64,000 nt of DNA from Aminobacter sp. HY435 (GTDB lineage Bacteria > Pseudomonadota > Alphaproteobacteria > Rhizobiales > Rhizobiaceae): NCBI RefSeq assembly GCF_027568395.1, contig NZ_JANKZL010000013.1:1-64000 (forward strand), given 5' to 3'. Below the pieces are notes generated by a model. It was not told the DNA's origin. It was given only the letters and a program-made list of their open reading frames with translations, and searched no databases. Position numbers and translations under genes: made by a program. Shown here piece by piece: positions 9,324 to 62,160 of the stretch; the first letter of the stretch is position 1, and every line of letters begins with the position of its first letter.

Positions 9324-9335
9324 CGCCACGTCTTC

Positions 9336-12711: not shown

Positions 12712-12740
12712 CAGCGCCTCCCAGAATAGAAGGGCAGATC

Positions 12741-13541: not shown

Positions 13542-13567
13542 TCACGCATGTTCGCCTTGAAGCGGCA

Positions 13568-15622: not shown

Positions 15623-15657
15623 GTTTGCGCCGCCTCCTCCGCGTCGATCAAGATGTC

Positions 15658-22756: not shown

Positions 22757-22771
22757 CATGGAGGGCTAGTT

Positions 22772-23569: not shown

Positions 23570-23629
23570 CAAGAAGCTTGCCGAACCGGTGGAGGACCGG
23601 CGGCGACGAGGAGCAACAGGGAGGAAATG

Positions 23630-24655
23630 ATGAAATCTCTATGGAAGAAACTGGCGGTCGCCGCTGCCGCCCTCGGGGCGAGCTTCAGCGCCCACGCCGA
23701 GGGCTCGGATGCGCCGAAGCCCTTGCCGCAGCGCGAAAAGGTCGTCGTCGCCATGACCGCCAAGGTCGAGGCCTACATCCCCATGATCCTTGCCGACCGA
23801 ATGGGCGAGTTCGACAAGGAAAACATCGACATCGAATATACTTTCGCCAAGTCGAGCGACGGCATCGTGCTGCTGTCCACCGGCCGCGCCGACGTGCTGG
23901 GCGGCCAGCCAAGTGCCGCGGTTTTCAATGCAATTGCCAGCGGCGCCGACATCCGCGTCGTGGCGCCGCTGTTCGTCCAGTCGGCGGCCCAGAAGCAGGG
24001 CATCTGGGCCAACAACGCCTTCCTCAATGGCCGCAAGTTCACCGTCGACCTGTTCAAGGACCAGACCATCGCCAGCGCGATCGGCCTCGGCTCGACGGCT
24101 TCCTACTTCCTGCAGACGGAACTCGATAAGGTCGGGCTGTCGCTGAAGGATGTGAAGTTCCAAACCATGGCTTCGCCCGACATCCTGGTCGCGCTCGAGA
24201 ACGGCGCCGTCAATTTCGGCTACCTGATCGATTCCATCTGGCAGAAGGCCGACGCATCCAAGGTGTCGCTGGCGTTCGTGCAGGGGCCGGAGATGTCGGC
24301 GGGCTCTTGGAGCTTCGGTCCGCGCCTGCTCAAGGAGCGCCGCGATGTCGGCGAGGCGATGATGCGGGCGCTGGTGCGCACGACGCGCACCTACCTCCAG
24401 GGCGACTATCACAAGGACCCGGAAGTCTTGAAGGTCATGGTCGAGGAACTGCAGTTGCCCGAGGAAACGCTGCAGAAGGGCGTGTCGCTGACCTTCGATC
24501 CCAATCTTTACATGCCGGCCGATCTGGCGGCACGCCTGCAAAAGACCTACGCGCTGATCCCTGAAGTCCTGTCCTATACGGAGCTGATGCCCGAGGGTCG
24601 CGTCGTGGACCAGGGCTTCATTGCTGCTGCGGGGATTCCCATTCCGGCGAAATAG
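23630..24655 (+). CDS. NitT/TauT-type ABC solute-binding protein
   Basis: A 341-residue periplasmic binding protein of the SsuA/NMT1-like kind. A Sec signal (MKSLWKKLAVAAAALGASFSAHA) precedes EGSDAPKPLPQREKVVVAMTAKVEAYIPMILADRMG. Two adjacent ATGs (23627, 23630) occur; GGGAGG at 23619-23624 gives better spacing to the second. It closes the hyu operon and has no permease or ATPase beside it; the unpaired NitT-type pair at 14786-16479 is the likely partner. Its last 38 bases overlap the end of the convergent IclR gene. Confidence 0.9.
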   Translation: MKSLWKKLAVAAAALGASFSAHAEGSDAPKPLPQREKVVVAMTAKVEAYIPMILADRMGEFDKENIDIEYTFAKSSDGIVLLSTGRADVLGGQPSAAVFNAIASGADIRVVAPLFVQSAAQKQGIWANNAFLNGRKFTVDLFKDQTIASAIGLGSTASYFLQTELDKVGLSLKDVKFQTMASPDILVALENGAVNFGYLIDSIWQKADASKVSLAFVQGPEMSAGSWSFGPRLLKERRDVGEAMMRALVRTTRTYLQGDYHKDPEVLKVMVEELQLPEETLQKGVSLTFDPNLYMPADLAARLQKTYALIPEVLSYTELMPEGRVVDQGFIAAAGIPIPAK

Positions 24656-28674: not shown

Positions 28675-29427
28675 ATGATGCAATTCGACGATCTCAATGG
28701 AAAAGCGGCACTCGTCACCGGTGCTTCCGGTGGCCTTGGCCAGCATTTCGCAGAGTTGCTCGCTAGTCATGGGGTGGCGGTCACGCTCGCCGCGCGGCGA
28801 CGTGAGGCGCTCGAGGAGGCCTGCGCCAGGATCGCTGCCGCCGGCGGCACCGCCCGCGCCATACAGATGGACGTCAGCGATGGCGGATCGGTTGCCGCGG
28901 CGCTGTCCGGCGCGAACTTCGACATCCTTGTCAACAATGCCGGCATCTCGGGCGCGTCCCGCGCACTCGACCTCGAGGAGGCCGAATGGGACCGCGTGCT
29001 CGACACCAACCTCAAGGGCGTCTTCGTCGTCGCCCAGGCGGTGGCGCGCGGCATGAAGGCTTCGGGCCGGGGTGGGGCGATCGTCAACATCGCATCGATC
29101 CTCGGTCACCGCGTCGCCGGCAACCTCAGCGCCTATGCCGCCTCCAAGGCTGGCGTGATCCAGCTGACCAAGGCTCTGGCACTGGAGTGGGCACGCGAAG
29201 GCATCCGCGTCAACGCGCTTTGCCCCGGCTATATCGAGACCGACATCAACCGCGACTTCTTCGCCTCCGCAGCCGGACTGGACCTGATCAAGCGCATCCC
29301 GCAGCGCCGGCTCGGCCGGCCGCAGGAACTCGACGGCGCGCTGCTTTTGCTCGCTTCCGCTGCCGGCAGCTACATCACCGGCTCGTCGATCGAAGTCGAT
29401 GGCGGCCACCTCGTTTCATCCCTGTGA
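28675..29427 (+). CDS. Short-chain dehydrogenase/reductase (FabG-like)
   Basis: A 250-residue classical SDR: cofactor motif TGASGGLG, NNAG, the catalytic Ser in IVNIASILG and YAASK, then the PG motif CPGYIETDI. The C terminus GSSIEVDGGHL is standard for FabG-like 3-hydroxyacyl dehydrogenases. AGGTG sits 5 bases before the ATG at 28675. It is the first gene of an operon with an acyl-CoA dehydrogenase 8 bp downstream, so a hydroxyacyl-CoA substrate is likely. Confidence 0.9.
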   Translation: MMQFDDLNGKAALVTGASGGLGQHFAELLASHGVAVTLAARRREALEEACARIAAAGGTARAIQMDVSDGGSVAAALSGANFDILVNNAGISGASRALDLEEAEWDRVLDTNLKGVFVVAQAVARGMKASGRGGAIVNIASILGHRVAGNLSAYAASKAGVIQLTKALALEWAREGIRVNALCPGYIETDINRDFFASAAGLDLIKRIPQRRLGRPQELDGALLLLASAAGSYITGSSIEVDGGHLVSSL

Positions 29428-29435
29428 GTACCGTC

Positions 29436-30653
29436 ATGAATTTCGATATCCCCGCCCATGTCGAAGACTATCGCGCCCGCATCGCCGATTTTGTCGCCGG
29501 CGAGATCCTGCCGCTCGAGGCCGACAAGGCATCCTATGATGAGCACGGCAACATTTCGCTGCCGCTGCTCGCGACCCTCCGCGCCAAGGCGCGGAGCGCC
29601 GGCCTGTGGTGCCTGCAGCTCAAGCCGGAGACCGGCGGCGCCGGTCTTGGCAAGATGGGCATGGCGGTCTGCTACGAGGAGATGAACCGCTCGATCTTCG
29701 GCCCTGTCGTCTTCAACTCGGCGGCGCCCGACGACGGCAACATGATGGTTCTCGAAGCGCTCGCCACGCCCGAGCAAAAGGAAAGGTGGCTGAAGCCGAT
29801 TGTCGAGGGCAAGGTGCGCTCGGCTTTCGCCATGACCGAGCCGCATCCCGGTGGCGGTTCCGATCCGTCGATGATCGCCACCCGCGCCGAGCGTCGCGGC
29901 GACAAATATGTCGTCACCGGCCGCAAGTGGTTCATTACCGGAGCGGAGGACGCCAGCCACTTCATCCTGGTCGCCCGCACCTCCGATGACCCCAAGCATG
30001 GACTTTCCGCGTTGCTCTTCCACAAGGATCAGCCCGGCTGGTCCATCAAGCGCCGCATCGAGATCATGGGTCCGGAAGAGCATGGCGGCCATTGCGAACT
30101 CGAGTTCGACGGGCTCGAAATCCCGGTCGAAAACCTCTTGGCCGGCGAGGGCAGGGGCATGAAGGTGACGCAGGTACGGCTTGCGCCGGCGCGGCTCACC
30201 CATTGCATGCGCTGGCTCGGCCTGTCCAAGCGCTGCGTCGAAATCGCCCGCGCCTATGCTGCCGAGCGTTATGGTTTCGGCGTCAGGCTGGCCGACCGCG
30301 AGAGCATCCAGCTCAAGCTCGGCGATCTCGCCATGCGTATCGAGATCGGCCGCATGCTGGTCATGAAGGCTGCCTGGGAGCTCGACCGCGGCGGCTTTGC
30401 CCGCAAGGAAGTTTCGATGGCGAAGGTTCAGGTTGCCAATGTCTTGCATGATGCTGCCGACGTGGCGATCCAGATCAACGGCGCCCGCGGCTACTCCAAG
30501 GACACCGTGCTGGAATGGATCTACCGCTATGCCCGCCAGGCGCGGCTGGTCGACGGTGCGGATGAGGTTCACAAGATGGTGCTGAACCGTTTCCTGAATG
30601 AGGAAGGCGCGGATTTCTGGCGTTGGAACGTAGAAGGCGAGGCAAATACTTGA
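29436..30653 (+). CDS. Acyl-CoA dehydrogenase family protein (ACAD10/11-like)
   Basis: A 405-residue FAD acyl-CoA dehydrogenase-fold enzyme. FAD/substrate motifs are AFAMTEPHPGGGSDPSMI and GRKWFITGAEDA; the C-terminal half has RYGFGVRLADRESIQLKLGDLA and GARGYSKDTVLEWIYRYARQARLVDGADEVHK. Its immediate coupling to an APH-type kinase gene (TGATG overlap) matches the domain pairing in ACAD10/11 and the LvaC/LvaA gene pairing, where 4-hydroxyacyl-CoA is phosphorylated and then processed by the dehydrogenase-fold enzyme. That role is inferred from organisation, not shown. Confidence 0.9.
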   Translation: MNFDIPAHVEDYRARIADFVAGEILPLEADKASYDEHGNISLPLLATLRAKARSAGLWCLQLKPETGGAGLGKMGMAVCYEEMNRSIFGPVVFNSAAPDDGNMMVLEALATPEQKERWLKPIVEGKVRSAFAMTEPHPGGGSDPSMIATRAERRGDKYVVTGRKWFITGAEDASHFILVARTSDDPKHGLSALLFHKDQPGWSIKRRIEIMGPEEHGGHCELEFDGLEIPVENLLAGEGRGMKVTQVRLAPARLTHCMRWLGLSKRCVEIARAYAAERYGFGVRLADRESIQLKLGDLAMRIEIGRMLVMKAAWELDRGGFARKEVSMAKVQVANVLHDAADVAIQINGARGYSKDTVLEWIYRYARQARLVDGADEVHKMVLNRFLNEEGADFWRWNVEGEANT

Positions 30654-31693
30654 TGGCTGGGGACAGCAAGGCGCAGATCGACGCTGACTTCGATCCATCG
30701 GCCCTCGAAGCGTTTCTCGTCGGACACTTCGGCGAAGGCAGCATGGCGCTCGAACGGATTGGCGGCGGCCAGTCCAACCCGACATACTTCGTCGATTTCG
30801 GAGCGCGCCGCATGGTGTTGCGCAAGAAGCCGGCGGGGCCGATCCTGCGCGGCGCGCATGCCATAGACCGCGAGTATCGTGTGCTCGAAGCACTTGCTCC
30901 GACCAATGTACCGGTGCCAACACCGGTGCTGTATCATGACGACGATGCGCTGCTCGGGACGCCGTTCTACCTGATGGAACGGCTGGAGGGCCGCGTCTTC
31001 CATGATTGCTCGTTGCCGGGCCTGTCGCCTGACGAGCGCCGTGGTATCTATCTCGGCATGGCCGAGGCGATGGCCAGGCTGCATGCGGTTCGTCCCGACG
31101 AAGTCGGCCTCGGCGACTATGGCAAGCCGGGAAACTATTTCGAGCGCCAGATCGCCCGCTGGACAAGGCAGCTTGGAGAGTCGCCGAGCGATCGCATTCC
31201 GGCGCTGGAAACCGTTGCCGACTGGCTGCCGCAAAACATGCCCGAAGACGATGGCCGGGTGTCGATCGCGCATGGCGATTTCCGTCTCGGCAATCTGTTG
31301 TTTCACCCCGACAAACCCGAGGTGATCGGAATCCTCGACTGGGAGTTGTCGACGCTTGGGCACCCGCTCGCCGACCTCGGCTTCTGCTCGATGACCTGGC
31401 ATTGTTCGCCGGACGAATATGGCGGCATCCTCGGTCTGGACATTGCGGCACTTGGCATTCCGAGCCAGCGCGAATTCCTCGACCATTATTTCGCACACGC
31501 GGCCCCGACACCGCAGCTCGAACGCTTCCATCTGGTGTTTTCGCTGTTTCGCTTTGCCGTGATCTTCGTCGGCATCGCCGACAGGGCGCGAGCCGGCAAT
31601 GCTGCCGCTGCCGATGCCGCGGACGTTGGGCCGCTCGCCGGGCGCTTCGCGGCGCGGGCCATGGAAATCATCAACGGAGCGCGGACGTGGTGA
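30653..31693 (+). CDS. APH-family kinase (phosphotransferase, ACAD10/11- and LvaA-like)
   Basis: A 346-residue aminoglycoside-phosphotransferase-fold protein. Kinase landmarks are GGGQSNPTYFVDFG near the N terminus, MVLRKKPAG (ATP-binding Lys), the catalytic loop HGDFRLGNLLFH, and metal-binding GILDWELSTLGHPLADLG. The first ATG (30653) overlaps the dehydrogenase stop. Bacterial homologues beside acyl-CoA dehydrogenases phosphorylate hydroxyacyl-CoA; antibiotic resistance is an unlikely role here. It ends the operon. Confidence 0.88.
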   Translation: MAGDSKAQIDADFDPSALEAFLVGHFGEGSMALERIGGGQSNPTYFVDFGARRMVLRKKPAGPILRGAHAIDREYRVLEALAPTNVPVPTPVLYHDDDALLGTPFYLMERLEGRVFHDCSLPGLSPDERRGIYLGMAEAMARLHAVRPDEVGLGDYGKPGNYFERQIARWTRQLGESPSDRIPALETVADWLPQNMPEDDGRVSIAHGDFRLGNLLFHPDKPEVIGILDWELSTLGHPLADLGFCSMTWHCSPDEYGGILGLDIAALGIPSQREFLDHYFAHAAPTPQLERFHLVFSLFRFAVIFVGIADRARAGNAAAADAADVGPLAGRFAARAMEIINGARTW

Positions 31694-31768: not shown

Positions 31769-32704
31769 CTAGGTTCGACGCTTTGCCATTTCAAGGGCAG
31801 TCACATCCTTTTCGAGCGACGCGAACTCTTCGATCAAACTGGAGGTCACTGCGCGCACGGCGGGCCAACTCTGCCGTTCGCGGTGGATGAGCAGTCCGAT
31901 CTCGCTCTGCTGCAGTTCCTGCTCAACGAGCGGTACATGCACGAGCTCGCCTGCCTTAAGTTCCTCTACAAAGCCGGCCGGAGTGAAAAAGCCAAGGCCT
32001 ATGCCAGCGCGCATGACCTCCTTCGTCATCGGCAGTGAGTTCGTGAGCAGCACCGATCGAAACTGCGCGCCACTGTGGATGAATTCGGCTTCGGCCGCCG
32101 CATTGAGGAGCCAGGGGTCGCTCAACATGGCGACTGGATAGGCCGCGCATTCTGTGAGGGTCAGCTCCTTGCGCGTTGCAAGCGGGTGGCCCGGGTGCAT
32201 GATTGCGCCCAGCCGCAATCTGATTCTGGCAGCTACATCGTAGCCGCTATGCCGCCGGTCGATGAACAGGATCGCCACGTCCGGCCTGCGCGCGCGCATT
32301 TCCTCGGCATGGTCGGCAGGGGCGGCATCGATAACGCGAAAGGTAATGTGCGGATGGAGCCGCGAGGTCGCTTCAATCGCACGCGGCAGGATGCGCACGA
32401 TGGGGGCTGGTATCGACACGATCCGGACTTCGCCATGAACGTCGCCCGAAAGCTCCGTTATCTCTGTTTGGATGGTCTGCCAGCGCGCCAAGGTCTCGCG
32501 TGCATGACGAATGACATAGTCGCCTGCCGCTGTCGGACGAACGCCGTTGCCCACCCGTTCGAACAGCGGCGTTCCCATGTCCGCTTCAAGCTTGAGAATC
32601 TGCCGGTTCACCGCCGACGAGGCCACATTGAGCACGCTTGCGGCGCGACGGATCGAACCCAGACGCGCCACCTGATCGATATAGCGCAGCACCGAAGCGT
32701 GCAT
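31769..32704 (-). CDS. LysR family transcriptional regulator
   Basis: A 311-residue LysR-type protein. The HTH is at residues 4-62 (LRYIDQVARLGSIRRAASVLNVASSAVNRQILKLEADMGTPLFERV), followed by the two-lobed effector domain (GEVRIVSIPAPIVRILPRAIEA, HPHITFRVI). It is divergent from the nine-gene operon at 32904-41759 and is the obvious regulator of that operon. Confidence 0.92.
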   Translation of the reverse strand: MHASVLRYIDQVARLGSIRRAASVLNVASSAVNRQILKLEADMGTPLFERVGNGVRPTAAGDYVIRHARETLARWQTIQTEITELSGDVHGEVRIVSIPAPIVRILPRAIEATSRLHPHITFRVIDAAPADHAEEMRARRPDVAILFIDRRHSGYDVAARIRLRLGAIMHPGHPLATRKELTLTECAAYPVAMLSDPWLLNAAAEAEFIHSGAQFRSVLLTNSLPMTKEVMRAGIGLGFFTPAGFVEELKAGELVHVPLVEQELQQSEIGLLIHRERQSWPAVRAVTSSLIEEFASLEKDVTALEMAKRRT

Positions 32705-32903: not shown

Positions 32904-33938
32904 ATGATTAAGACAGCACTCTCTCGCCGTTCGCTGCTGAAGGCTGGTGCCGGTATGGCCGGTGCGCTTGCCATGCCAGCGATAGTCACCAGCCGTGTCT
33001 TCGCGCAGAAAGGCACCCGCTCCATCAACATGCAGCTTGGCTGGCTCGGCGGCGGAAATCAGCTTGGCGAGGTGGTTGCCAAGCATCTCGGTTATTTCGA
33101 GCAGGAAGGCCTCGACTTCGCCATTCAGGCTGGCGGACCGTCGATCGACGGCGTGGCGATCGTAGCCTCAGGCCGTTACGAAATCGGACAGGTTTCGTCC
33201 AGCCCCTCGCTCATGCTTGCTGCCTCGCAGGGCATCCCGGTGAAGGCCTTCGCGGTGAGCGCGCAGGAGCATCCCTACGCCTACATCTCGCTGGCTTCCA
33301 ATCCGATCAAGACCCCGCAGGACATGGTCGGCAAGAAGATCGGTATTCAGGCGACCGGCAAGGTACTGCTCACTGCCCTGCTCAAGAAGGCCGGTATCCC
33401 CGAAAGCGAGGTCGAGGTCGTCGTGATCGGAGCCGACATGACGCCGTTGCTGACCGGTCAGGTGCACGCCGCCACCGGGTGGCTGACCAACACCACCGCG
33501 ATTGCGGCACTCGGCCAGGACTACGTTGCCATGAAGCTGTGGGACCAGGGCGTCCAGCTGTACGGCAACCCCTATTACGCCACCGCCGACACGATCGAAA
33601 AAGACCAGGAGATGCTGACCGGCTTCCTCAAGGCGTCGGGCAAGGGCTGGGAGTATGCCAATTCCAATCCGGAAGCCGCGGTCGACCTGCTGTTGAAGGA
33701 ATTCCCGAATCTTGTCCGTGACGACGAGATCGCCGCTTCCAAGGTGCTGCTCGCCCACATCTTCACGCCCGCGACCGCCGCTGGCGGCTGGGGCACGATG
33801 GATCCGGCCATTTGGCAGGGTCAGATCTCTCTTTACGATGAGCTCCAGCAGTTCTCGGCCGGCGCGCCGAAGCTGGAAAACGTCATCTCGATGGCCCCGC
33901 TGGAAGCGACGGCTGCCGACCGCCCCAAGATCGGCTGA
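32904..33938 (+). CDS. NMT1/THI5-like ABC solute-binding protein with Tat-type signal
   Basis: A 344-residue periplasmic binding protein of the NitT/TauT superfamily. The N terminus LSRRSLLKAGAGMAGALAMPA contains SRRSLLK, a twin-arginine signal. The mature part NMQLGWLGGGNQLGEVVAKHLGYFEQEGLDF and GKKIGIQATGKVLLTALLKKAGI are typical of NMT1-like binders of small organic acids, sulfonates or pyrimidine-like compounds. AGGGGA precedes the ATG at 32904. It heads the operon and pairs with the next two genes. Confidence 0.9.
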   Translation: MIKTALSRRSLLKAGAGMAGALAMPAIVTSRVFAQKGTRSINMQLGWLGGGNQLGEVVAKHLGYFEQEGLDFAIQAGGPSIDGVAIVASGRYEIGQVSSSPSLMLAASQGIPVKAFAVSAQEHPYAYISLASNPIKTPQDMVGKKIGIQATGKVLLTALLKKAGIPESEVEVVVIGADMTPLLTGQVHAATGWLTNTTAIAALGQDYVAMKLWDQGVQLYGNPYYATADTIEKDQEMLTGFLKASGKGWEYANSNPEAAVDLLLKEFPNLVRDDEIAASKVLLAHIFTPATAAGGWGTMDPAIWQGQISLYDELQQFSAGAPKLENVISMAPLEATAADRPKIG

Positions 33939-33951
33939 AGGGAGGCCTGAG

Positions 33952-34773
33952 ATGGCACTTGCCGCGCTCGAATTCGACCGGCCCGCGCCGGTATCCATGT
34001 CGATGGCTGATGAAATTGCCGTCGACCTGAAACAGGTTTCGGTCCGCTTCACGACCGAGCGCGGAACCATCACTGCGCTGGACAACATCGATCTTTCCGT
34101 GGTGACGGGCGGCTTCCTGACGCTGCTAGGACCTTCGGGCTGCGGCAAGTCCACGCTTCTGCGAGTCGTTGCCGACATCATCAAGCCGTCCAGCGGCTCG
34201 GCGAGCGTGCTCGGCGGCGTGCCATCTCTGGCTCGCTCTCGTCGCGACATCGGCTTCGTCTTCCAGGATGCGGCGCTTCTGCCCTGGCGCACGGTTCTGG
34301 ACAATGTGACATTGCCGCTCGAAGTGGGCGGCGGCGCCCCGGCAGGGAGAGCGCGGGATCCGCGCGAACTGCTCGAACTCGTCGGGCTTTCGGGCTGGGA
34401 GAAAGCATTCCCGCACGAACTCTCGGGCGGCATGCGGCAGCGTGTGTCGATCGCGCGCGCGCTCGTCTCCAGCCCCAAGCTGCTCCTCATGGACGAGCCG
34501 TTCGGGGCGCTCGACGAGATTACGCGCGATCGCCTCAACGAGGAACTTCTCGCCGTCTGGGAGCGTACCGGAACGACGATCCTCTTTGTCACCCACTCAA
34601 TCTACGAGGCGGCATTCCTCGGCCAGCAAGTGCTGCTGCTTGCGGCGCGTCCGGGCCGGGTGCGCGAAATGGTGCCGGTCGATCTGCCATCTCCTCGGCG
34701 TGTTGCCATGCGCGAGACGCCGCAATTCGTCTCGCTCGTGACCCGTCTGCGCAAAGTGCTGGAGACCTGCTGA
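33952..34773 (+). CDS. NitT/TauT-family ABC transporter ATP-binding protein
   Basis: A 273-residue ATPase: Walker A GPSGCGKST, Q-loop FVFQDAALLPWRT, signature LSGGMRQR, Walker B LLMDEPFGALD, H-loop FVTHSIYEA. GGGAGG precedes the ATG at 33952. It is 13 bp downstream of the solute-binding protein gene and 1 bp upstream of the permease gene. Confidence 0.93.
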   Translation: MALAALEFDRPAPVSMSMADEIAVDLKQVSVRFTTERGTITALDNIDLSVVTGGFLTLLGPSGCGKSTLLRVVADIIKPSSGSASVLGGVPSLARSRRDIGFVFQDAALLPWRTVLDNVTLPLEVGGGAPAGRARDPRELLELVGLSGWEKAFPHELSGGMRQRVSIARALVSSPKLLLMDEPFGALDEITRDRLNEELLAVWERTGTTILFVTHSIYEAAFLGQQVLLLAARPGRVREMVPVDLPSPRRVAMRETPQFVSLVTRLRKVLETC

Positions 34774-34774
34774 C

Positions 34775-35608
34775 ATGGCCAACACCGCAACAATGGGCGC
34801 GTTTGTCGACGACAACGAAGCCCAGGAAGTCTACCTCGCGGCCAAGCGCCGGCTTCTCTGGCGCAGGCGGCTGCTGCCGGTCGTGACGTTCCTGACGCTG
34901 CTCGTCGTCTGGGAAGTCAGTGTCCGGGTGTTCGAGATCAAGCCCTTCATTGCACCGGCACCCAGCGCCGTGATGCAGGTGCTGGTCAGCAAATTCCCGA
35001 TGCTGATGCAGAACCTGCTGCCGACGGCCATCGAGGCGATCGCCGGCTTCATCATCGGCAATCTGGCGGCGATCAGCATCGCCACCGCCTTTGCCTACAA
35101 GCAGAGCCTGGAAGAGGCATTCTTCCCGATCGCGGTGATGGTCAACACCATCCCCGTCGTGGCGAAGGCGCCGATCCTGGTGCTGCTGCTCGGCAACGGC
35201 ATGGAGCCGAAGATCGCGATTGCCGCGCTGATCTGCTTTTTCCCGACGCTCGTCAACATGACGCGCGGCTTGCGTGACGTGAATGCGCAGCAACTCGAGC
35301 TGATGCACGTGCTGTCGGCTTCGCCGCGCGAGGTCTTCATCAAGGTCCGGCTCAAGAACTCGCTGCCCTATCTGTTTTCGGCGCTGAAGATCGCCGCCTC
35401 GACGGCCGTCATCGGCGCCATCGTCGGCGAATGGATCGGATCGACGGTGGGTATCGGCGCCCTGATCATTCAGGCCACCTACAACTTCGACTCGCCGCTT
35501 CTCTACGCAACCATCGTCGTCGGATCGGTCTTTTCGGCCTCCTTCTTCGGCGTGATCTCGTGGATGGAACGCTACTTCCTCACCTGGAACGCATCGGGCA
35601 CGCGCTGA
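34775..35608 (+). CDS. NitT/TauT-family ABC transporter permease
   Basis: A 277-residue permease with about six transmembrane helices, including VVTFLTLLVVWEVSVRVFEI and the conserved FIAPAPSAVMQVL after helix 1. The coupling loop is LELMHVLSASPREVFIKVRLKNSLPYLFSALK. It completes a self-sufficient importer with the two genes upstream. Confidence 0.92.
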   Translation: MANTATMGAFVDDNEAQEVYLAAKRRLLWRRRLLPVVTFLTLLVVWEVSVRVFEIKPFIAPAPSAVMQVLVSKFPMLMQNLLPTAIEAIAGFIIGNLAAISIATAFAYKQSLEEAFFPIAVMVNTIPVVAKAPILVLLLGNGMEPKIAIAALICFFPTLVNMTRGLRDVNAQQLELMHVLSASPREVFIKVRLKNSLPYLFSALKIAASTAVIGAIVGEWIGSTVGIGALIIQATYNFDSPLLYATIVVGSVFSASFFGVISWMERYFLTWNASGTR

Positions 35609-35640
35609 GCCGCCGCCCGCACATAACTTGGGAGACCCAA

Positions 35641-36993
35641 ATGACTTCTCGACAGATGATTGACGAGCCGGGCGGCAAGGTTCCCGTCGTCGCGGAAGCC
35701 GACCTCGTCGTGGTCGGCGGCGGTCCGGCCGGCATCGCGGCTGCGGTGGCCGGCGCGCGCAACGGCCTCTCGGTCGTGCTTCTGGAGCGATATGCCTATC
35801 TCGGCGGCCTGGCATCGGGCGGCATGGTGCTGGTGCTCGACGACATGTGCAACGGCAATGAAGTGACCGTGAAGGGCCTTTGCGGCGAACTCATCGACCG
35901 CATGACGACGATGGGGCTTTGCGTGACGCCGCCTGAAGCCGACTGGATCGCCGACGAAGCCAAGTTCCGGCAGTGGGCGCGCTGGGGTACCTACAACTTC
36001 CACAGCCATTCCAAGCCGCAGCCGGTTTGCTATGCCTCGGCTTTCGATCCCGACGGGTTCAAGCGTGCATCCAACGACATGATTGCCGAAGCCGGCATCA
36101 ATCTCAGGCTGCACTCCTGGTTCTCGAAGACGATCGTCGAGGATGGGGTCGTCAAGGGTGTCATCTGCGACTCCAAGTCGGGTCGCCAGGCGATCCTCGG
36201 CAAGGTCGTGGTCGACGCGACCGGCGACCTCGATGTCGCGGCCTCTGCCGGCGCCGCGCACAGCCAGGGTTCTTTCATCGTCACCACGGTGTTCCGCCTG
36301 GGTGGCATCGACACCGAAGAGGCCGAGCGCTTCGAATATGCAGAGCCGGAAGCTTTCGCGCAGGTCGACCGCGAGGCAAAGCGCATCATGGGCGGTTCCT
36401 GGGAACGCTGGTGGCTGAAGACGCCGCTGCCCGGCATCGTCTGGTGCAACTGCCCGCACATGGCAGGCTTCGACGGAACCTCGGTCGAGGACCTGACCCG
36501 CGCCGACTTCAAGGGGCGCGAGAAGATCGCAGCCCTGGTCGAATATGTGCGTGCCAGCGTTCCGGGCTTCCAGAACGCATTCGTGGTCGACGTTGCGCCC
36601 CAGGTTGGCGTGCGCACCTCCCGCCTGCTCGAGGGCGAATATGTGCTGACCAAGGAGGACGTGTCGTCCCGTCGCCACTTCGCCGACTCCGTCGCGCGCG
36701 GCCGGGACTACTATTATCCGTATCGCACGCTGCTGCCCAAGGATGTGAAGCAACTCCTCGTCGCCGGCCGGCATTATTCCTCGACCGCCGCGGCCCAGCG
36801 CATCTCGCGCGAGATCCCGCCCTGCATGGCGATGGGCGAAGCGGTTGGCGTCGCTGCCTCCGTCGCGCTCGACCAGGGCGTGACGGTCGACAAGGTGGAG
36901 ATTGCCAAGGTGCAGCGCCTGCTGCGTGAGCAGGGTGCCGATCCGGGCGATCAGCCTGCGCCGAACGCCACGTTCCAGGCGGCGGCGGAATGA
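35641..36993 (+). CDS. FAD-dependent oxidoreductase (FAD_oxidored family)
   Basis: A 450-residue flavoprotein with an N-terminal FAD-binding ADLVVVGGGPAGIAAAVAGA and the long insert LLERYAYLGGLASGGMVLVL typical of PF12831-type oxidoreductases. The C-terminal GRHYSSTAAAQRISREIPPCMAMGEAVGVAA contacts the flavin. Members act on varied hydroxy or unsaturated substrates and some use Fe-S electron acceptors; a 7Fe ferredoxin is encoded three genes downstream. The exact reaction is not known. Confidence 0.88.
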   Translation: MTSRQMIDEPGGKVPVVAEADLVVVGGGPAGIAAAVAGARNGLSVVLLERYAYLGGLASGGMVLVLDDMCNGNEVTVKGLCGELIDRMTTMGLCVTPPEADWIADEAKFRQWARWGTYNFHSHSKPQPVCYASAFDPDGFKRASNDMIAEAGINLRLHSWFSKTIVEDGVVKGVICDSKSGRQAILGKVVVDATGDLDVAASAGAAHSQGSFIVTTVFRLGGIDTEEAERFEYAEPEAFAQVDREAKRIMGGSWERWWLKTPLPGIVWCNCPHMAGFDGTSVEDLTRADFKGREKIAALVEYVRASVPGFQNAFVVDVAPQVGVRTSRLLEGEYVLTKEDVSSRRHFADSVARGRDYYYPYRTLLPKDVKQLLVAGRHYSSTAAAQRISREIPPCMAMGEAVGVAASVALDQGVTVDKVEIAKVQRLLREQGADPGDQPAPNATFQAAAE

Positions 36994-37007
36994 GGAGAGA
37001 CAAGCAG

Positions 37008-38222
37008 ATGAACACCACCGACACCCAGCCGCTTTCCGGCGTCAAGGTCATCGATTTCACCCAGGTTATGCTCGGCCCCTGCTGCACCCAGGTGCTGGCC
37101 GACTACGGCGCTGATGTCATCAAGATCGAGCGGCCGGGGGCGGGCGATCTCTCCCGCACCTCGATCGCCGACGATCCGGATGGCATGAACAATCCCGTCT
37201 TCCGCAGTCTTAACCGCAACAAGCGTTCGATCGCGCTCGACCTGCGCAAGGATGAAGCGAAGGAAGTCATCTACGACCTGGTCCGCAACGCAGACGTGGT
37301 CGTCAACAATTTCCGCGCCGGCGTGATGGAGCGCATGGGCTTCGGCTACGACAAGCTGTCTGAGATCAACCCGCGCATCATCTGCGCCTTCGGCTCGGGT
37401 TTTGGCCCGTCCGGCCCGCTCTCCCACAAGGGTGGGCAAGACATCCTTGCCCAGGCCTTGTCGGGCGTGATGGCGCGACGCGCCGATGCGTCAACGCCGA
37501 TGACGATCTATCCAACCGCGCTCGCCGACTACTCGGCGGGGATGCATCTCGTGCAGGCAATTCTGCTCGCGCTGCTACAACGCGGCAAGACGGGACGAGG
37601 CCAGGCCGTGTCGGTCTCCCTGTTCGAATCCATGCTGGCGATGCAGATGCAGGAAGCGGCGATGTGGCTGCAGCGAAAGAAGGACCTCAACTGGGCTTCC
37701 TTCCCGCTCACCGGCGCCTTCGAAACGACTGATGGCGCGCTGGTTTTGGTCGGCGCGTTCAAGGTGAACCCGCTCAAGGACATCTCGGCGGCACTTGGCC
37801 TGCCTGATCTGTCGCAGGAGGAGCGTTTCTCGACCTTTGCGCGGCAGATGGACAACAAGGCAGAGCTTCACCGCATGTTCGGCGAGAAGTTTTCCTCGGG
37901 AACCACCGAACACTGGCTGGCGAAACTCGAGGAGCAGGACATCCTGTGCTCGCCGGTTCTCAGCCTGGCCGAGGCGCTCGACCATGGGCAGACGGCTGAA
38001 AACGGTTCAGTCATCGAGGTCGAAGGTGCCCGCGCGCCGATGCAACTGATGGGCACGCCGCTGACCATGAGCGGCGACGCGTTCCAGGTACGCCGTGCGC
38101 CGCCGGATCTCGGCGCGGACGGAGCAGATGTTCTGCGTGAGGCCGGCTACTCGCCAGAGAAGATCGATGCGCTGATTGCAGCTGGCATCCTCACCGGCGA
38201 GCGTCGCGGAGAGGCGGCATGA
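37008..38222 (+). CDS. Family III CoA-transferase (CaiB/BaiF)
   Basis: A 404-residue family III CoA-transferase, which moves CoA between carboxylic acids. Landmarks are GVKVIDFTQVMLGPCCTQVLADYGADVIKIERPGAGD, FGSGFGPSGPLSHKGGQDILAQALSG, and the catalytic aspartate, D174 by position in TALADYSAG. Two ATGs exist (36990 overlapping the previous stop, 37008); GAGGAG at 36992-36997 favours the second. It probably activates the imported acid or an intermediate for the hydratase that follows. Confidence 0.92.
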   Translation: MNTTDTQPLSGVKVIDFTQVMLGPCCTQVLADYGADVIKIERPGAGDLSRTSIADDPDGMNNPVFRSLNRNKRSIALDLRKDEAKEVIYDLVRNADVVVNNFRAGVMERMGFGYDKLSEINPRIICAFGSGFGPSGPLSHKGGQDILAQALSGVMARRADASTPMTIYPTALADYSAGMHLVQAILLALLQRGKTGRGQAVSVSLFESMLAMQMQEAAMWLQRKKDLNWASFPLTGAFETTDGALVLVGAFKVNPLKDISAALGLPDLSQEERFSTFARQMDNKAELHRMFGEKFSSGTTEHWLAKLEEQDILCSPVLSLAEALDHGQTAENGSVIEVEGARAPMQLMGTPLTMSGDAFQVRRAPPDLGADGADVLREAGYSPEKIDALIAAGILTGERRGEAA

Positions 38223-38995
38223 GCGTCGCATTCACCGTCGAAAACCACGTCGCACGGGTCACGATCGATCGGCCGGAGCGCATGAACGCGGTCGATCTGG
38301 CGACCGAGGCGGAACTCGTCCGCATCTGGGAGGCTATCGAAAAGGATCGCAGCGTGCGTGTCGTCGTGCTGACGGGGGCGGGCGATCGCGCCTTTTGCAC
38401 CGGCGCCGACATGAAGGGCACCAGCGGCCTGTCCGGCCTCGAATACTGGGCAGCCGAGCGCAAGGGCGGTTTCGGCGGCATCGCCTTGAGGGATACGCTT
38501 GATGTGCCGGTCATCGCCCGCGTGAATGGCCATGCGCTTGGCGGCGGCATGGAAATGGTGCTTGGCTGCGACATCGTCATTGCATCTGAAAAGGCGACGT
38601 TCGGGCTGCCGGAGCCACGCGTCGGCAGGCTGGCGCTCGATGGCGGCATTGCCCTTCTGGCGCGGCGCATTCCGCATGTCCACGCCATGGGCATGCTGCT
38701 GACCGGCCGGCGCATCGACGCGGCCAAGGCGCACGAGTTCGGCCTCGTCAATGAGGTGGTGGCGCCCGATGCGCTCGACGAAGCGGTCGATCGCTGGGTC
38801 GCGGACGTCCTTGCCTGTGCGCCGCTTTCGGTGCGGGCGGTAAAGGCGATGGTGCGGGCCGGGGAAGGCTTGAGCGCCAGGGAAGCGCAGATGCTGCGTC
38901 TGCCGCAATTGATCGAGGCGCTACAGTCGCAAGACCAGAACGAGGGTGTCGCAGCCTTCGTCGAAAAGCGCGCCCCGAACTGGTCTGGCAAGTAA
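38219..38995 (+). CDS. Enoyl-CoA hydratase/isomerase family protein
   Basis: A 258-residue crotonase-fold enzyme. The oxyanion-hole strand is VVLTGAGDRAFCTGADMKG and GHALGGGMEMVLGCDIVIASEKATFGLPEPRVG holds both catalytic Glu positions found in hydratases (GGGMEM and LPEPRVG). It overlaps the CoA-transferase gene by 4 bases (ATGA), so it most likely hydrates the CoA ester made by that enzyme. Confidence 0.92.
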   Translation: MSVAFTVENHVARVTIDRPERMNAVDLATEAELVRIWEAIEKDRSVRVVVLTGAGDRAFCTGADMKGTSGLSGLEYWAAERKGGFGGIALRDTLDVPVIARVNGHALGGGMEMVLGCDIVIASEKATFGLPEPRVGRLALDGGIALLARRIPHVHAMGMLLTGRRIDAAKAHEFGLVNEVVAPDALDEAVDRWVADVLACAPLSVRAVKAMVRAGEGLSAREAQMLRLPQLIEALQSQDQNEGVAAFVEKRAPNWSGK

Positions 38996-39000
38996 CGGCC

Positions 39001-39342
39001 ATGCCCTATGTGATCGCCTCTGCCTGCATCGATGTAAAGGATGGCGATTGCCAGGACGTCTGCCCCGTCGAATGCATCTACGAAGGAGGTCGGATGATGT
39101 ACATTCATCCGACCGAATGCATCAGTTGCGGTCTGTGCCTCTCCATATGCCCTGTCGACGCGATCTTCGCCGACGATGAACTGCCTTCACATGAAGGGCG
39201 GTTCCTCGCGATCAATGCCGAGTTCTTCGGCGAAGGGGTCACGGGCTGGGGCGAGCCCGGAGGCGCAACGGACAAATTTCGCACCGATCTCGATCATGCC
39301 GAGGTTGCCGGTGCGCCCAGGAAGGAATCCATAATATCATGA
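39001..39342 (+). CDS. 7Fe ferredoxin ([3Fe-4S][4Fe-4S], FdxA/FdI-like)
   Basis: A 113-residue ferredoxin whose cysteine spacing (C9, C17, C21, C25, C40, C43, C46, C50) equals that of Azotobacter ferredoxin I shifted by one. By that comparison C9, C17 and C50 bind a 3Fe-4S cluster and C21, C40, C43 and C46 a 4Fe-4S cluster. The C-terminal ~50 residues form the usual tail. It is 5 bp after the hydratase gene and overlaps the dehydrogenase gene by 4 bases, so it probably serves a redox enzyme of this operon, most likely the FAD protein. Confidence 0.93.
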   Translation: MPYVIASACIDVKDGDCQDVCPVECIYEGGRMMYIHPTECISCGLCLSICPVDAIFADDELPSHEGRFLAINAEFFGEGVTGWGEPGGATDKFRTDLDHAEVAGAPRKESIIS

Positions 39343-40775
39343 CAGTGCACCAGAACTTCATCGCCGGCCGCTGGACGGACGGTGCTGAAGCAGCAGAAAA
39401 CTACAACCCATCCAACACGAACGAAGTCATCGGAACCTACGCGCGGGCATCGCGCAAGGATGCGGACGATGCGATCGCGGCGGCGCGTGCTGCGTTGCCG
39501 GCCTGGTCGCGCTCAGGCATCCAGCAGCGCCATGACATCCTGAAGAGAGTTGGAGACGAGATCCTCGCCCGGAAGGACGAACTCGGTCTGCTGCTGGCGC
39601 GCGAGGAGGGCAAGACCCTCCCCGAGGCAGTGGGCGAGGTCACGCGTGCGGCGCAGATCTTCGACTTCTTCTCGGGCGAAGTGCTCCGGCTGGCAGGTGA
39701 GAAGCTCGCCTCCACGCGCCCCGGCATCGAGGTCGAAATCACGCGCGAGCCGGTGGGTGTCGTCGGCATCATCACGCCGTGGAATTTCCCGATCGCCATT
39801 CCCGCCTGGAAGATTGCGCCAGCACTTGCCTATGGCAATTGCGTGGTCTTCAAGCCCGCCGATCTGGTTCCCGCTTCGGCCTGGGCGCTGTCCGACATCA
39901 TCATCCGCGCTGGCACTCCGGAAGGGGTGTTCAATCTCGTGATGGGCCGCGGCGCCATCGTCGGCGACGCAATGCTGAACGATCCCCGGATCGACGCCAT
40001 CACGTTCACCGGTTCCGTTGCCACCGGCAAGAAGGTCGCTTTTGCCTGTGTCGAAAACATGCGCAAGTTCCAGCTGGAGATGGGCGGCAAGAACCCGATG
40101 GTCGTGCTCGACGACGCTGATCTCGGCGTCGCGGTGGAGGCTTGCGCGAACGGCGCGTTCTTCTCGACCGGTCAGCGCTGCACGGCCTCATCGCGCCTTG
40201 TGGTGACCGAAGGCATCCACGACCGCTTCGTGTCTGCACTGACCGAGCGGTTGAAGGGGCTCGTCGTTGACGATGCGGTGAAGAGCGGCACGCATGTCGG
40301 TCCCGTGGTCGACCAGAACCAACTCGACCAGGATCTGTCCTACATCGACATCGGCCAGAAGGAAGGCGCCAGACTTGCATGGGGCGGCGAGCGGCTCAGT
40401 CGAAATCACCCGGGCTTTTACCTGCAGCCCGCGCTCTTCACGGAGACAAGCGCGGACATGCGCATCAACCGCGAGGAGATCTTCGGCCCGGTCGCAAGTG
40501 TCATGCGGGTCAAGGACTATGATGAGGCCCTTGCTGTCGCAAACGATACCGTCTTCGGCCTGTCGGCGGGCATCTGCACGACCAGCCTGAAGCATGCGTC
40601 GCATTTCCGGCGCAACGTCGAAGCCGGCATGGTGATGGTCAACCTGCCGACGGCCGGTGTCGACTACCACGCACCGTTCGGCGGCCGAAAGGCATCGTCC
40701 TATGGCCCGCGCGAACAGGGCCGATACGCCGCTGAGTTCTATACGACGGTGAAGACTGCCTACACGCAGCCTTGA
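39339..40775 (+). CDS. NAD(P)-dependent aldehyde dehydrogenase
   Basis: A 478-residue ALDH superfamily enzyme: cofactor fold FTGSVATGKKV, general base E247 in QLEMGGKNP, nucleophile C281 in STGQRCTASSR, and the C-terminal NLPTAGVDYHAPFGGRKASSYGPREQG. The last motif and PWNFPIAIP resemble 2-oxoglutarate semialdehyde dehydrogenases, but other semialdehydes are possible. It precedes a DapA-family lyase, so it may oxidise the aldehyde released by that enzyme. Confidence 0.92.
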   Translation: MTVHQNFIAGRWTDGAEAAENYNPSNTNEVIGTYARASRKDADDAIAAARAALPAWSRSGIQQRHDILKRVGDEILARKDELGLLLAREEGKTLPEAVGEVTRAAQIFDFFSGEVLRLAGEKLASTRPGIEVEITREPVGVVGIITPWNFPIAIPAWKIAPALAYGNCVVFKPADLVPASAWALSDIIIRAGTPEGVFNLVMGRGAIVGDAMLNDPRIDAITFTGSVATGKKVAFACVENMRKFQLEMGGKNPMVVLDDADLGVAVEACANGAFFSTGQRCTASSRLVVTEGIHDRFVSALTERLKGLVVDDAVKSGTHVGPVVDQNQLDQDLSYIDIGQKEGARLAWGGERLSRNHPGFYLQPALFTETSADMRINREEIFGPVASVMRVKDYDEALAVANDTVFGLSAGICTTSLKHASHFRRNVEAGMVMVNLPTAGVDYHAPFGGRKASSYGPREQGRYAAEFYTTVKTAYTQP

Positions 40776-40786
40776 CGTCCTCAGCG

Positions 40787-40810
40787 GCCATTTCCCCCGG
40801 GAAACGGCCA
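40787..40810 (+). other. Intercistronic stem-loop
   Basis: GGCCATTTCCC and GGGAAACGGCC pair with one mismatch across a two-base centre, between the aldehyde dehydrogenase stop and the lyase ribosome site. It may tune or protect the mRNA; no T-run follows. Confidence 0.35.
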
Positions 40811-40841
40811 TCCTCAACGGCATCAAGTCAGGAGCCAGCCG

Positions 40842-41759
40842 ATGGGCATTCTCAAAGGCGTCATCGCCGCCGCCGCTACGCCGCTCAACGATGATCTTTC
40901 GATCAACCTCAGCGGCCTCGTTCAACATTGCGCCTACCTTCTCGACAAAGGTGGCTGTGACGGTATCAACCTGCTTGGGACGACAGGCGAAGCGACGTCC
41001 TTTTCGCTCGAACAGCGGATCGAGGCGATGCGGGCCATCGCTTCGTCCGGCTTGTCGATGTCACGTTTCATGGTCGGTACGGGCGCTGCGGCATTTGACG
41101 ATGCCGTGACGTTGACCGCTTCCGCGAAAGAGCTCGGCTTTGCAGGCGCATTGCTGCTGCCGCCGTTCTACTACAAGGGCATCGATGTCGACGCCTTGGT
41201 CGCCTATGTGACGGCGGTGGTGGAGCGCGTTGGCGCAGAGGGCTTGCCACTTTATCTCTATCACTTTCCTGCGAATTCCGGCGTGCCCTATGCTGCAGAT
41301 GGCGTGAAGCGTTTGCGCGACCGTTTTCCTGGAGTGCTGAAGGGGCTAAAGGATTCCTCGGGAGATCTGGACTATTCGGCGGGCCTGGCACGGGATCTTC
41401 CAGGCTTCGACGTTTTCCCGAGTGCTGAAGCGTCGATAGGAAAGGCATCGGAGCTTGGTTTCGCAGGCTGCATCTCCGCGACTGCGAACGTGACCGGACC
41501 CTTTGCCCAGGCCGCGTTCACAGGCACGTCGGATGGAGACAAGGCCGATGGCCTTGCGGCCGCCGTGCATATTCGCGGTGAAATCTCCAAATTTCCGCTT
41601 GTCGCTGCAGTCAAGGAAACATTGGCGCTGACAAGCGGCCACGCAGGTTGGCGACGGCTCGTGCCTCCACTGGGAAGCCTGTCGGCCGCCCAGTCCGATG
41701 CGCTGCGAACTGCACTTGCGCAGACCGAACTCGGTCAACTGCTTAGGCCTGTTTCGTAG
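40842..41759 (+). CDS. DapA/NanA-superfamily aldolase or dehydratase
   Basis: A 305-residue class I aldolase of the DHDPS/N-acetylneuraminate lyase superfamily. The 2-oxo-acid-binding GTTGE motif (LLGTTGEATS), the catalytic Tyr in LYHFPANSG and the Schiff-base Lys in GLKDSSGD are all present, so it should be active on a 2-oxo acid. Members include dihydrodipicolinate synthase, deoxyglucarate dehydratase and hydratase-aldolases of aromatic pathways. It ends a catabolic operon, so an aldol cleavage or dehydration is more likely than lysine synthesis. Confidence 0.9.
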   Translation: MGILKGVIAAAATPLNDDLSINLSGLVQHCAYLLDKGGCDGINLLGTTGEATSFSLEQRIEAMRAIASSGLSMSRFMVGTGAAAFDDAVTLTASAKELGFAGALLLPPFYYKGIDVDALVAYVTAVVERVGAEGLPLYLYHFPANSGVPYAADGVKRLRDRFPGVLKGLKDSSGDLDYSAGLARDLPGFDVFPSAEASIGKASELGFAGCISATANVTGPFAQAAFTGTSDGDKADGLAAAVHIRGEISKFPLVAAVKETLALTSGHAGWRRLVPPLGSLSAAQSDALRTALAQTELGQLLRPVS

Positions 41760-41833: not shown

Positions 41834-42370
41834 TCATCGCGACAGGCGCTTTTCGTCGTCGATGAGGATCAGCCGGGCAGGGGCCGCATCGCTCCAAGTC
41901 CAGAGTACCAGGTTGAGATCGTCCATCGTGGCGCCCGGGGCGAAGCTTCTCACCAGCAAGCCATGATATCCGCCGTCAATCAGCCGGCGGGCGAAAGCCT
42001 GCGTTCGAGCTTCGCCGCGTGATTTCATCTGGTCGCGCCATGTGCCATCGGCCAGCGCGATTTCGTCCATTTCGGCCGCTTTGAGCGCGTGATCGTCCCG
42101 GCAATCGAACACGCGGTCGATTTCGGCTTCGTAGCTGACGAGCGTGGTAGGCTGGAGGTTGCCGACCTGGTTGGCTTCGCGCAGTGCGGTCATCATCGCC
42201 AGTGATGCATACAGGGCAGGCAGGCCCTTGGGATTGAACCGGCCGCCGTAGAGTTCGGCGCCGCGGCCGGACAGGGGCTCGCGCGCATAGACCGGGTTCA
42301 GCGCTCGATAGAGCTTTCCCTGATATCGCACGACGTCAGGCGTATACGCCGGCGTCGACCGCGTCGACAT
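41834..42370 (-). CDS. RES-domain toxin (NAD+ phosphorylase family)
   Basis: A 178-residue RES toxin. The name-giving Arg, Glu and Ser residues fall in KLYRALNPVYAREP, YGGRFNPKGLPALYAS and the EAEID region. RES toxins such as MbcT break down NAD+ and are held inactive by Xre/MbcA antitoxins. The start at 42370 lies 35 bases inside the upstream antitoxin gene, the usual coupled layout. An inverted repeat (CCGTTCAGGGCC at 41771-41782; GGCCTTGAACGG at 41821-41832) just past the stop may help end transcription with the convergent aldolase gene. Confidence 0.88.
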   Translation of the reverse strand: MSTRSTPAYTPDVVRYQGKLYRALNPVYAREPLSGRGAELYGGRFNPKGLPALYASLAMMTALREANQVGNLQPTTLVSYEAEIDRVFDCRDDHALKAAEMDEIALADGTWRDQMKSRGEARTQAFARRLIDGGYHGLLVRSFAPGATMDDLNLVLWTWSDAAPARLILIDDEKRLSR

Positions 42371-42686
42371 AGTCAAGCACTTCGTCCGCGCGGCCGTTGC
42401 GCACGAGCTGCATGGCTGTCTGGCCCGAGAAGCCGGGGAGCGGCTCTGATCTATACCAGGCATAGGCCATCAGGCTCGAACCAAAACGCGGCTCGACCTT
42501 GTTGATCACTTCGACCATCTCGCGGAGCCGACGCTGGGTCTTGTCAGACCGCACGCGGTCCTTGCGCTGGACTGCGTCCTTGCCGAGCCCCGCTGTGCGC
42601 GCGACTTCCTCGCTCGTGGTCCGGAAGGCGTCTGCAATCTTGCGGGGCGCGAAAAAGCCGTCGTCCGCATACTGTACCAAGCCCAT
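42336..42686 (-). CDS. Xre/MbcA/ParS family antitoxin (DUF2384)
   Basis: A 116-residue antitoxin. The N-terminal HTH region (FRTTSEEVARTAGLGKDAV) binds DNA and the C-terminal half (GSSLMAYAWYRSEPLPGFSGQTAMQLVRNGRADEVLDYVDAV) is the MbcA/ParS toxin-binding domain. I choose the ATG at 42686 because GGAGG lies 6 bases upstream; ATGs at 42710 and 42743 are also in frame, but the promoter found at 42712-42747 would exclude the latter. It precedes and overlaps the toxin gene. Confidence 0.88.
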   Translation of the reverse strand: MGLVQYADDGFFAPRKIADAFRTTSEEVARTAGLGKDAVQRKDRVRSDKTQRRLREMVEVINKVEPRFGSSLMAYAWYRSEPLPGFSGQTAMQLVRNGRADEVLDYVDAVDAGVYA

Positions 42687-42711
42687 TCCAGGCCTCCATG
42701 AGACGCTCATA

Positions 42712-42747
42712 TTGACGGAATATAGCGTCAAAGATGGCGGCATTCAA
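42712..42747 (-). promoter_or_regulatory. Autoregulated promoter of the toxin-antitoxin pair
   Basis: On the minus strand TTGAAT (42742-42747) and TATATT (42719-42724) are 17 bases apart. A perfect inverted repeat, TTGACG-N8-CGTCAA (42712-42731), covers the -10 box, the place expected for the Xre antitoxin to bind and repress. Confidence 0.65.
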
Positions 42748-43009: not shown

Positions 43010-45334
<2,325 letters not shown>

Positions 45335-62105: not shown

Positions 62106-62160
62106 TGTTACCTCCCGGGGATCGCACTTCCTGCCTGCAGCATCGTAACGAATGACAGGA

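Follow-up and report, generated by a model that had tools for sequence, protein, structure and literature searches.

The window analysed here is a stretch of 64,000 nucleotides from Aminobacter sp. HY435 (contig NZ_JANKZL010000013.1, positions 1 to 64,000), and our subject is an operon of nine genes, called A to I, at 32904-41759 (Table 1). An earlier, sequence-only reading had described nine tightly packed genes; all nine open reading frames were confirmed where it placed them, all on the plus strand, with gaps of 13, 1, 32, 14, -4, 5, -4 and 66 bases in order from A to I. Its gene-by-gene names agree with Pfam and NCBIfam; the start of A is of the twin-arginine translocation (Tat) kind. E might instead start at an in-frame ATG at 36990. 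Among the best 25 NCBIfam models per protein, no cut-off was reached by A-F, H or I. Only G passes one, narrowly (FdxA_Actino, 126.7 bits against a cut-off of 125), and its cysteine pattern is that of 7Fe ferredoxins.

Table 1. Genes of the operon and its divergent regulator in the window, with features of locus L074 (see text)
Feature	Position	Strand	Pfam match or remark
R: LysR-type regulator	31769..32704	-	PF00126+PF03466; divergent from A
A: Tat-type NMT1/ThiY-like solute-binding protein	32904..33938	+	PF09084 (NMT1), 168.7 bits
B: ATP-binding cassette (ABC) transporter ATPase	33952..34773	+	PF00005 (ABC_tran)
C: ABC transporter permease	34775..35608	+	PF00528 (BPD_transp_1)
D: flavin adenine dinucleotide (FAD)-dependent oxidoreductase	35641..36993	+	PF12831 (FAD_oxidored)
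E: family III (CaiB/Frc) coenzyme A (CoA)-transferase	37008..38222	+	PF02515 (CoA_transf_3)
F: crotonase-fold hydratase	38219..38995	+	PF00378 (ECH_1)
G: 7Fe-type ferredoxin (FdxA-like)	39001..39342	+	Fer4 (Pfam)
H: aldehyde dehydrogenase (ALDH), nearest alpha-ketoglutaric semialdehyde / 2,5-dioxovalerate dehydrogenase models	39339..40775	+	Aldedh (Pfam)
I: DapA-family lyase or dehydratase	40842..41759	+	PF00701 (DHDPS)
L074 features	8379-9698, 1424-2899, 12394-13692, 16718-17797		

Many bacteria from soil and sea keep the module together. Searches for D gave matches in 47 of 297 family genomes at E<=1e-40, 42 of which still qualify at E<=1e-100, and in 16 of 385 class-level genomes at E<=1e-90, both counts including the own genome. 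Plasmids have it too: 59 of 72,556 records matched at E<=1e-50, among them pRL11 of the pea symbiont Rhizobium johnstonii 3841, in which the orthologues of A and D are RL_RS29860 and RL_RS29875. Among named genomes, 465 relatives were confirmed, the best 80 of which were retained; these belong mainly to Alphaproteobacteria, with Variovorax and two Gammaproteobacteria in addition. The clusters of A, C, E, F and R occur in 32 of the first 35 mapped loci, and that of B in 34. On both counts, the operon is more than a chance assembly.

We pooled 140 loci, 139 of them with D, and were left with 103 non-redundant ones once D proteins sharing 95% identity or more had been removed. A is present in 93 of these, B and C in 96 each, E in 102, F in 100 and G in 91; A to F are all present in 90. 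An orthologue of R, next to A or past F or G, occurs in 79. I was found in 34 loci and a second DapA subfamily in six more (40 in total), and H in 20. The core therefore comprises A-F and G. H and I are accessory genes that tend to occur jointly: I or its substitute accompanies H in 19 of 20 loci, and occurs in 21 others without H. The nine-gene set of the sequence-only reading thus co-occurs as far as A-F and G are concerned, with H and I being optional.

The non-core genes adjoining the module include a PF01979 amidohydrolase and a PF00383 deaminase. We profiled four groups of deaminases, AMH12, AMH13 and AMH17 (PF01979) and dCD (PF00383), with class identity cut-offs of 38% for AMH12 and AMH17, 45% for AMH13 and 35% for dCD. 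Such a deaminase is linked to the module in 55 of the 103 loci (AMH12 in 18, AMH13 in 10, AMH17 in 8 and dCD in 19). Two classes never occur together (0/103), compared with a mean of 8.9 loci, and never zero, in 20,000 shuffles, although the families were defined from the same loci and relatedness inflates all p-values. All but one of the 55 lie at most 300 bases from a module gene, the exception being L093 at 4.6 kb. Several loci have the gene within the operon itself: the deaminase reading frame overlaps H by 4 bases in L059 and G by 4 bases in L216, and it lies 14 bases past G in Chelatococcus (L205) and 10 bases past H in Roseibium (L207).

These genes are concentrated at D. Of 19 copies of AMH12 in 294 family genomes, 13 are at D on the same contig; the other six comprise one on another contig of a D genome (G262), one second copy in a D genome and four in genomes without D, and the binomial value for the linkage is far below 1e-30, relatedness being ignored. 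The family genomes contain 11 copies of dCD, with seven at D, three elsewhere in D genomes and one in a genome with merely a weak D relative (Fisher p about 1e-8, with 41 of 294 genomes taken as D-bearing and relatedness ignored). On a tree of D built by a quick method, the deaminase label undergoes 22 changes if absence is counted as a state, and dCD alone undergoes eight, six of which are forced by well-supported branches. Thus, the deaminase slot has been refilled repeatedly, which reads as one function, the deamination of a heterocycle, displaced by unrelated enzymes. The nearest solved relatives are 5'-methylthioadenosine/S-adenosylhomocysteine (MTA/SAH) deaminases for AMH12 and AMH13, and cytidine and deoxycytidine monophosphate (CMP/dCMP) deaminases for dCD; for AMH17, the models of 5'-deoxyadenosine deaminase and N-ethylammeline chlorohydrolase share first place.

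Some further proteins of these types were seen. L140 has, besides dCD, an extra PF01979 protein outside the four classes. An AMH17-like protein of L048/L134 (31-32% identical) was left uncounted, as was an adenosine deaminase in L045 that may be part of a neighbouring operon. In ten relatives, none of the PF01979 copies among the matches listed lies within 10 kb of D.

Genes of the Pyd or Rut pathways, which act on uracil and thymine, adjoin the module in four of the 103 loci. In L216/L230, a reductive pyrimidine cluster in the order PydX-PydA-M20 hydrolase-ABC-PydB, with an NMT1 importer, stands beside AMH13. Its PydA-type protein combines DHO_dh and ferredoxin domains, its PydX-type protein has a dihydropyrimidine-dehydrogenase domain, its dihydropyrimidinase exceeds the cut-off of its model, and its M20 hydrolase is taken for PydC. 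After AMH12, L147 and L148 encode proteins 62-72% identical to PydA, PydB and PydX, together with a carbon-nitrogen hydrolase; this hydrolase, whose best model is N-carbamoylputrescine amidase with a score below the cut-off, is taken for beta-ureidopropionase. The same hydrolase also occurs with PydB in L219. In Rhizobium sp. ACO-34A (L212), an annotated rut operon (rutA-F) is divergent from A, and the genes beside AMH13 in L097 are 78% and 51% identical to RutC and RutD of L212. Since RutA is a rarity among the family genomes, with matches in 23 of 294 at E<=1e-120, its adjacency to the module is notable. Dihydropyrimidinase-type genes occur in 265 of the 294 genomes, and their presence in D-bearing genomes is thus uninformative.

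Genes for nucleosides were found as well: a PF01156 nucleoside hydrolase in L048 (one of the 103 loci), with a homologue in its relative L134, two 5'-nucleotidase-type proteins in L153, an adenosine-deaminase-family protein in L138, and pyrE and thymidine kinase a few genes upstream in Arthrobacter L203. As a purine control, XdhB, the sole purine gene searched, was found in 0 of 141 loci. The nine operon genes of the window include none of the ring-cleaving enzymes of Pyd or Rut; its genome encodes a dihydropyrimidinase elsewhere (C23) and gave no match to RutA at E<=1e-120.

The binding protein A starts near a Tat-like SRRSLLK, and the twin-arginine pattern is present in 76 of 91 reading frames of A orthologues; among the 12 misses listed, several have misplaced frame starts and some carry RRAAL, outside the pattern used. 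In a structural comparison, binders of thiamin and pyrimidines ranked on top, with other NMT1 classes, including sulfonate binders, below them. The nearest structures are the thiamin-bound protein 4nmy, ThiY and Thi5; 4nmy and ThiY are only 23-24% identical to A. The best NCBIfam model for A, a sulfonate family, was sub-threshold at 55 of 163.5 bits. The NMT1 importer of the Pyd cluster in L216 is 25% identical to A over 233 residues, and given this separate importer, A should import something other than the free base. An Rfam scan for a thiamin pyrophosphate (TPP) riboswitch gave no match of any kind in the window and no such riboswitch in seven other loci, where the sole match was one unrelated SAM_alpha. 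The A gene is duplicated in L042 (4321-5337 and 5885-6907, 54-65% identity to A of the window), and likewise in L043.

The linked deaminases, the adjoining Pyd/Rut genes and the thiamin- and pyrimidine-binding relatives of A point to an amino-pyrimidine substrate. We propose, with a probability of about 0.6, that an amino-pyrimidine compound is imported by A-C and degraded by D-G, along with I and H in the loci that have them, its ring feeding uracil catabolism once deaminated. The sequence-only reading had seen a complete acid-degradation pathway; one conserved catabolic unit with CoA activation is supported, while the completeness and the substrate classes are not. H and I are missing from most loci, and the deaminase, linked in just over half of them, is absent beside the window copy. 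The sulfonates, furans and pyridines it had named as candidates fit poorly with a neighbourhood of deaminases, Pyd/Rut genes, a nucleoside hydrolase and nucleotidase-type proteins, which points to pyrimidines or nucleosides, and the structural ranking of A speaks against a sulfonate-type substrate. Its statement that no described pathway has this exact set agrees with our survey of the openly accessible literature, with subscription papers mostly outside its scope, in which no operon of this kind was found.

The enzymes give some indication of the chemistry. Among the nearest folds of D are those of urocanate and fumarate reductases, of a protein resembling geranylgeranyl reductase, and of FixC, whose partner FixX is ferredoxin-like. 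In F, E112, E132 and the GGG oxyanion-hole motif G108-G110 are invariant in all 12 aligned sequences; by motif and spacing, we take the two glutamates to be the catalytic ones of enoyl-CoA hydratase. H scores highest with two 2,5-dioxopentanoate dehydrogenase models, NF042993 (532 of 770 bits) and NF052305 (514 of 750 bits), the next ALDH model being at 431. The same two models rank on top for H of Rhodococcus, and 11 orthologues of H have their best E-values to them, with the other listed ALDH models also matching 11 of 11; a sequence-based ranking of PDB relatives of H was uninformative. The window copy of I has KDSSGD, the motif of the Schiff-base lysine. All its NCBIfam scores are far under the cut-offs, and its best PDB relative, 3b4u, is named merely dihydrodipicolinate synthase.

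One chemistry that we infer tentatively, at well under even odds, starts from pyrimidine (deoxy)nucleoside 5'-carboxylates; the argument joins features from different lineages of one module. The substrate would be such a carboxylate or a nucleoside whose 5'-CH2OH is oxidised by D, with electrons passing to G. E would form a CoA thioester at C5', and F, acting as a dehydratase, would remove the acidic C4'-H and expel the 3'-OH. The enol ether would then open, with loss of the base from C1', leaving HOOC-CO-CH2-CHX-CHO. If X is H, this would be 2,5-dioxopentanoate, to be oxidised by H to 2-oxoglutarate; if X is OH, H would yield 4-hydroxy-2-oxoglutarate, which I could cleave to pyruvate and glyoxylate. 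The deaminase would convert the cytosine form to the uracil form, and the released ring, once deaminated, would enter uracil catabolism through Pyd or Rut. The relatives of AMH12, AMH13 and dCD act on 5'-substituted nucleosides or nucleotides, which suits nucleoside-carboxylate chemistry. With somewhat greater reserve still, the whole may be described as a CoA-dependent nucleoside catabolism in which C5' oxidation, thioester formation and dehydration free the base with neither phosphorolysis nor hydrolysis of the N-glycosidic bond.

Several points weigh against an amino-pyrimidine substrate or its proposed chemistry, beyond the origin of the deaminase families in the very loci counted. The binding proteins nearest to A take thiamin and its pyrimidine rather than nucleosides, and H is under the cut-off of every listed model. 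Neither H nor I is present in 62 of the 103 loci, and the C5 argument is thus supported by part of the family only. The linked amidohydrolases also match chlorohydrolase, 8-oxoguanine deaminase and guanine deaminase models. A linked deaminase is absent from the window's own clade (10 rows of the D tree), and the window genome has no match to dCD and none to AMH12 at E<=1e-60, AMH13 and AMH17 not having been searched. Finally, Pyd/Rut genes were unseen in the fetched flanks of 99 of the 103 loci, these flanks reaching at least 3 kb on both sides in only 57.

Some lineages have other importers or another lyase. Two gammaproteobacterial loci (L138 and L153) combine D-E-F with a major facilitator superfamily (MFS) transporter and an amidohydrolase, with A-C not seen in the fetched stretch. 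On Rhodococcus qingshengii plasmids (L202 and L214), the order is MFS-D-E-F-DapA-short-chain dehydrogenase/reductase (SDR)-ALDH-ferredoxin, and an Arthrobacter plasmid (L203) has the same order, except that the ferredoxin was not found. With some 18-25% identity to I, the actinobacterial DapA protein groups with the second DapA subfamily (34% identical), which replaces I in L202, L203, L210, L211 and L214, in L045 and L096, and in L054 and L212. An SDR accompanies this subfamily in the actinobacterial loci, L054 and L212. In loci with this pair, the lower part of the nucleoside route could alternatively run through 2-keto-3-deoxypentonate, formed by reduction and then dehydrated to 2,5-dioxopentanoate. 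The actinobacterial operons, in which no linked deaminase of the four classes was found, thus show that the enzyme set recurs in another order with a different lyase.

Other explanations were weighed. The one that survives best is catabolism of the thiamin pyrimidine (4-amino-5-hydroxymethyl-2-methylpyrimidine, HMP) or of 5-hydroxymethylcytosine, which we consider unlikely. The deaminase would take the 4-amine, the SDR and H would turn CH2OH into COOH, and E would make the CoA ester; F would then hydrate C6, beta to the thioester, and open the ring, and D and G would adjust the oxidation state. The structural nearness of A to 4nmy, ThiY and Thi5, the deaminases linked to the module and the SDR and ALDH within the actinobacterial operons are all consistent with this route, but it leaves the DapA lyase without a role and sits badly with the linkage to Pyd/Rut genes and with the finding of no TPP riboswitch in the window and seven other loci.

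A reductive route for the C3 product that uracil or thymine yields on ring cleavage appears improbable. E would activate 3-hydroxypropionate or its methyl homologue, F would dehydrate it, in keeping with both hydratase glutamates, and D and G would reduce the enoyl-CoA, as the reductases and FixC among the nearest folds of D would allow. Although the Pyd/Rut linkage in 4 of 103 loci also fits, a dedicated importer tied to D-E-F, the deaminases, H and I would be left unexplained, and A is unlike the importer of the Pyd cluster.

We give equally little credence to a stand-alone pathway for a small acid (a sulfonate, furan or pyridine), with no pyrimidine involved and with the deaminases and Pyd/Rut genes incidental. 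The sub-threshold sulfonate model of A argues for it, as do the actinobacterial operons, in which none of the four deaminase classes is linked and the MFS importer resembles metabolite:H+ (acid) symporters. Against this, four mutually exclusive deaminase families in 55 of 103 loci, with copies concentrated at D, would have to be coincidental, pyrimidine binders outrank sulfonate binders for A, and the Pyd/Rut linkage is left unexplained.

Import of a sulfonate or taurine was rejected on the sub-threshold model score and the structural ranking of A, and cytokinin, melamine and guanidine, weighed from the deaminase families only, were dropped because of the Pyd/Rut linkage. Degradation of folate or pterin was also set aside: PMC9513972 names carboxypeptidase G and pterin deaminase, and the terms gene cluster, ABC transporter, CoA-transferase and ferredoxin do not occur in it.

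The remainder of the window contains other genes of interest. Upstream of R (28675-31693) are genes for an SDR, 35% identical to the SDR of L212, an acyl-CoA dehydrogenase and an APH-type phosphotransferase. Downstream of the operon, a RES-domain protein and a small upstream gene (41834-42743, minus strand) look like a RES/Xre toxin-antitoxin pair, followed by a peroxidase-family (KatG-like) gene at 43010-45259. PF01979 amidohydrolases are encoded at 57474-58916 (+), 58925-60412 (-) and 62283-63773 (+), with what looks like a dipeptide-type binding protein among them (60537-62204) and more PF01979 matches at 68-70 kb of the contig. We rejected the window amidohydrolases at 57.4-63.8 kb as the missing deaminase, as they are 21-28% identical to AMH12/13/17 and 16 kb off; this group from 57474 on, which is not close to the linked deaminases, is possibly a second N-heterocycle locus. 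At 14786-24655, an ABC permease, hydantoinase/oxoprolinase A and B, a thiolase-like protein and a further binding protein of NMT1-like type may form a second catabolic cluster; the B part precedes a domain resembling acetone carboxylase gamma. Elsewhere, a distant D paralogue shares locus L074 with a nucleoside hydrolase (PF01156), an importer of the dipeptide type and two genes resembling amidohydrolases, which suggests a wider family of such modules.

If the amino-pyrimidine reading is correct, the module, including its copy on pRL11 of R. johnstonii 3841, would gain a substrate class, where the current annotations are merely 'FAD-dependent oxidoreductase', 'CoA transferase' and 'dihydrodipicolinate synthase family'. 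Should the nucleoside chemistry also hold, Pyd/Rut would receive uracil, while deoxyribose would end as 2-oxoglutarate and ribose as pyruvate and glyoxylate. Alpha-, Beta- and Gammaproteobacteria as well as Actinomycetota would then share a CoA-dependent route whose deamination is performed by unrelated enzymes according to lineage; it would be another chemistry separating base from sugar and a sink for the carbon of environmental DNA and RNA. If the substrate were instead the thiamin pyrimidine, the module would provide a gene-level breakdown route for the pyrimidine of vitamin B1, which we did not find in the literature searched.

Known systems resemble parts of the module. In the carnitine pathway, a family III CoA-transferase is likewise followed by a crotonase (CaiB and CaiD), but E scores 140 of 413 bits with CaiB and F 166 of 500 with CaiD, and the other partners differ. 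The Weimberg/arabonate and glucarate routes employ a DapA-family dehydratase and alpha-ketoglutaric semialdehyde dehydrogenase (KGSADH), the families of I and H, which co-occur here in 19 of 20 loci; unlike those routes, the operon has an H under the KGSADH cut-offs and no sugar-acid dehydratase among its nine genes. With the ThiXYZ/ThiY-type import of thiamin pyrimidine, A shares the fold and the top structural rank of ThiY and 4nmy, but it is 23-24% identical, no TPP riboswitch was found, and the operon looks catabolic. A precedent for the proposed first step is nucleoside oxidase, which reportedly (Koga et al. 1997) oxidises nucleosides at C5' to the carboxylate. To our knowledge, Pyd and Rut use no CoA-transferase, crotonase or PF12831 enzyme, and none of their genes is in the window operon. 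They adjoin the module in L216/L230, L147, L148 and L219 (Pyd) and in L212 and L097 (Rut), and the Pyd cluster of L216, like the module itself, has an importer of the NMT1 type.

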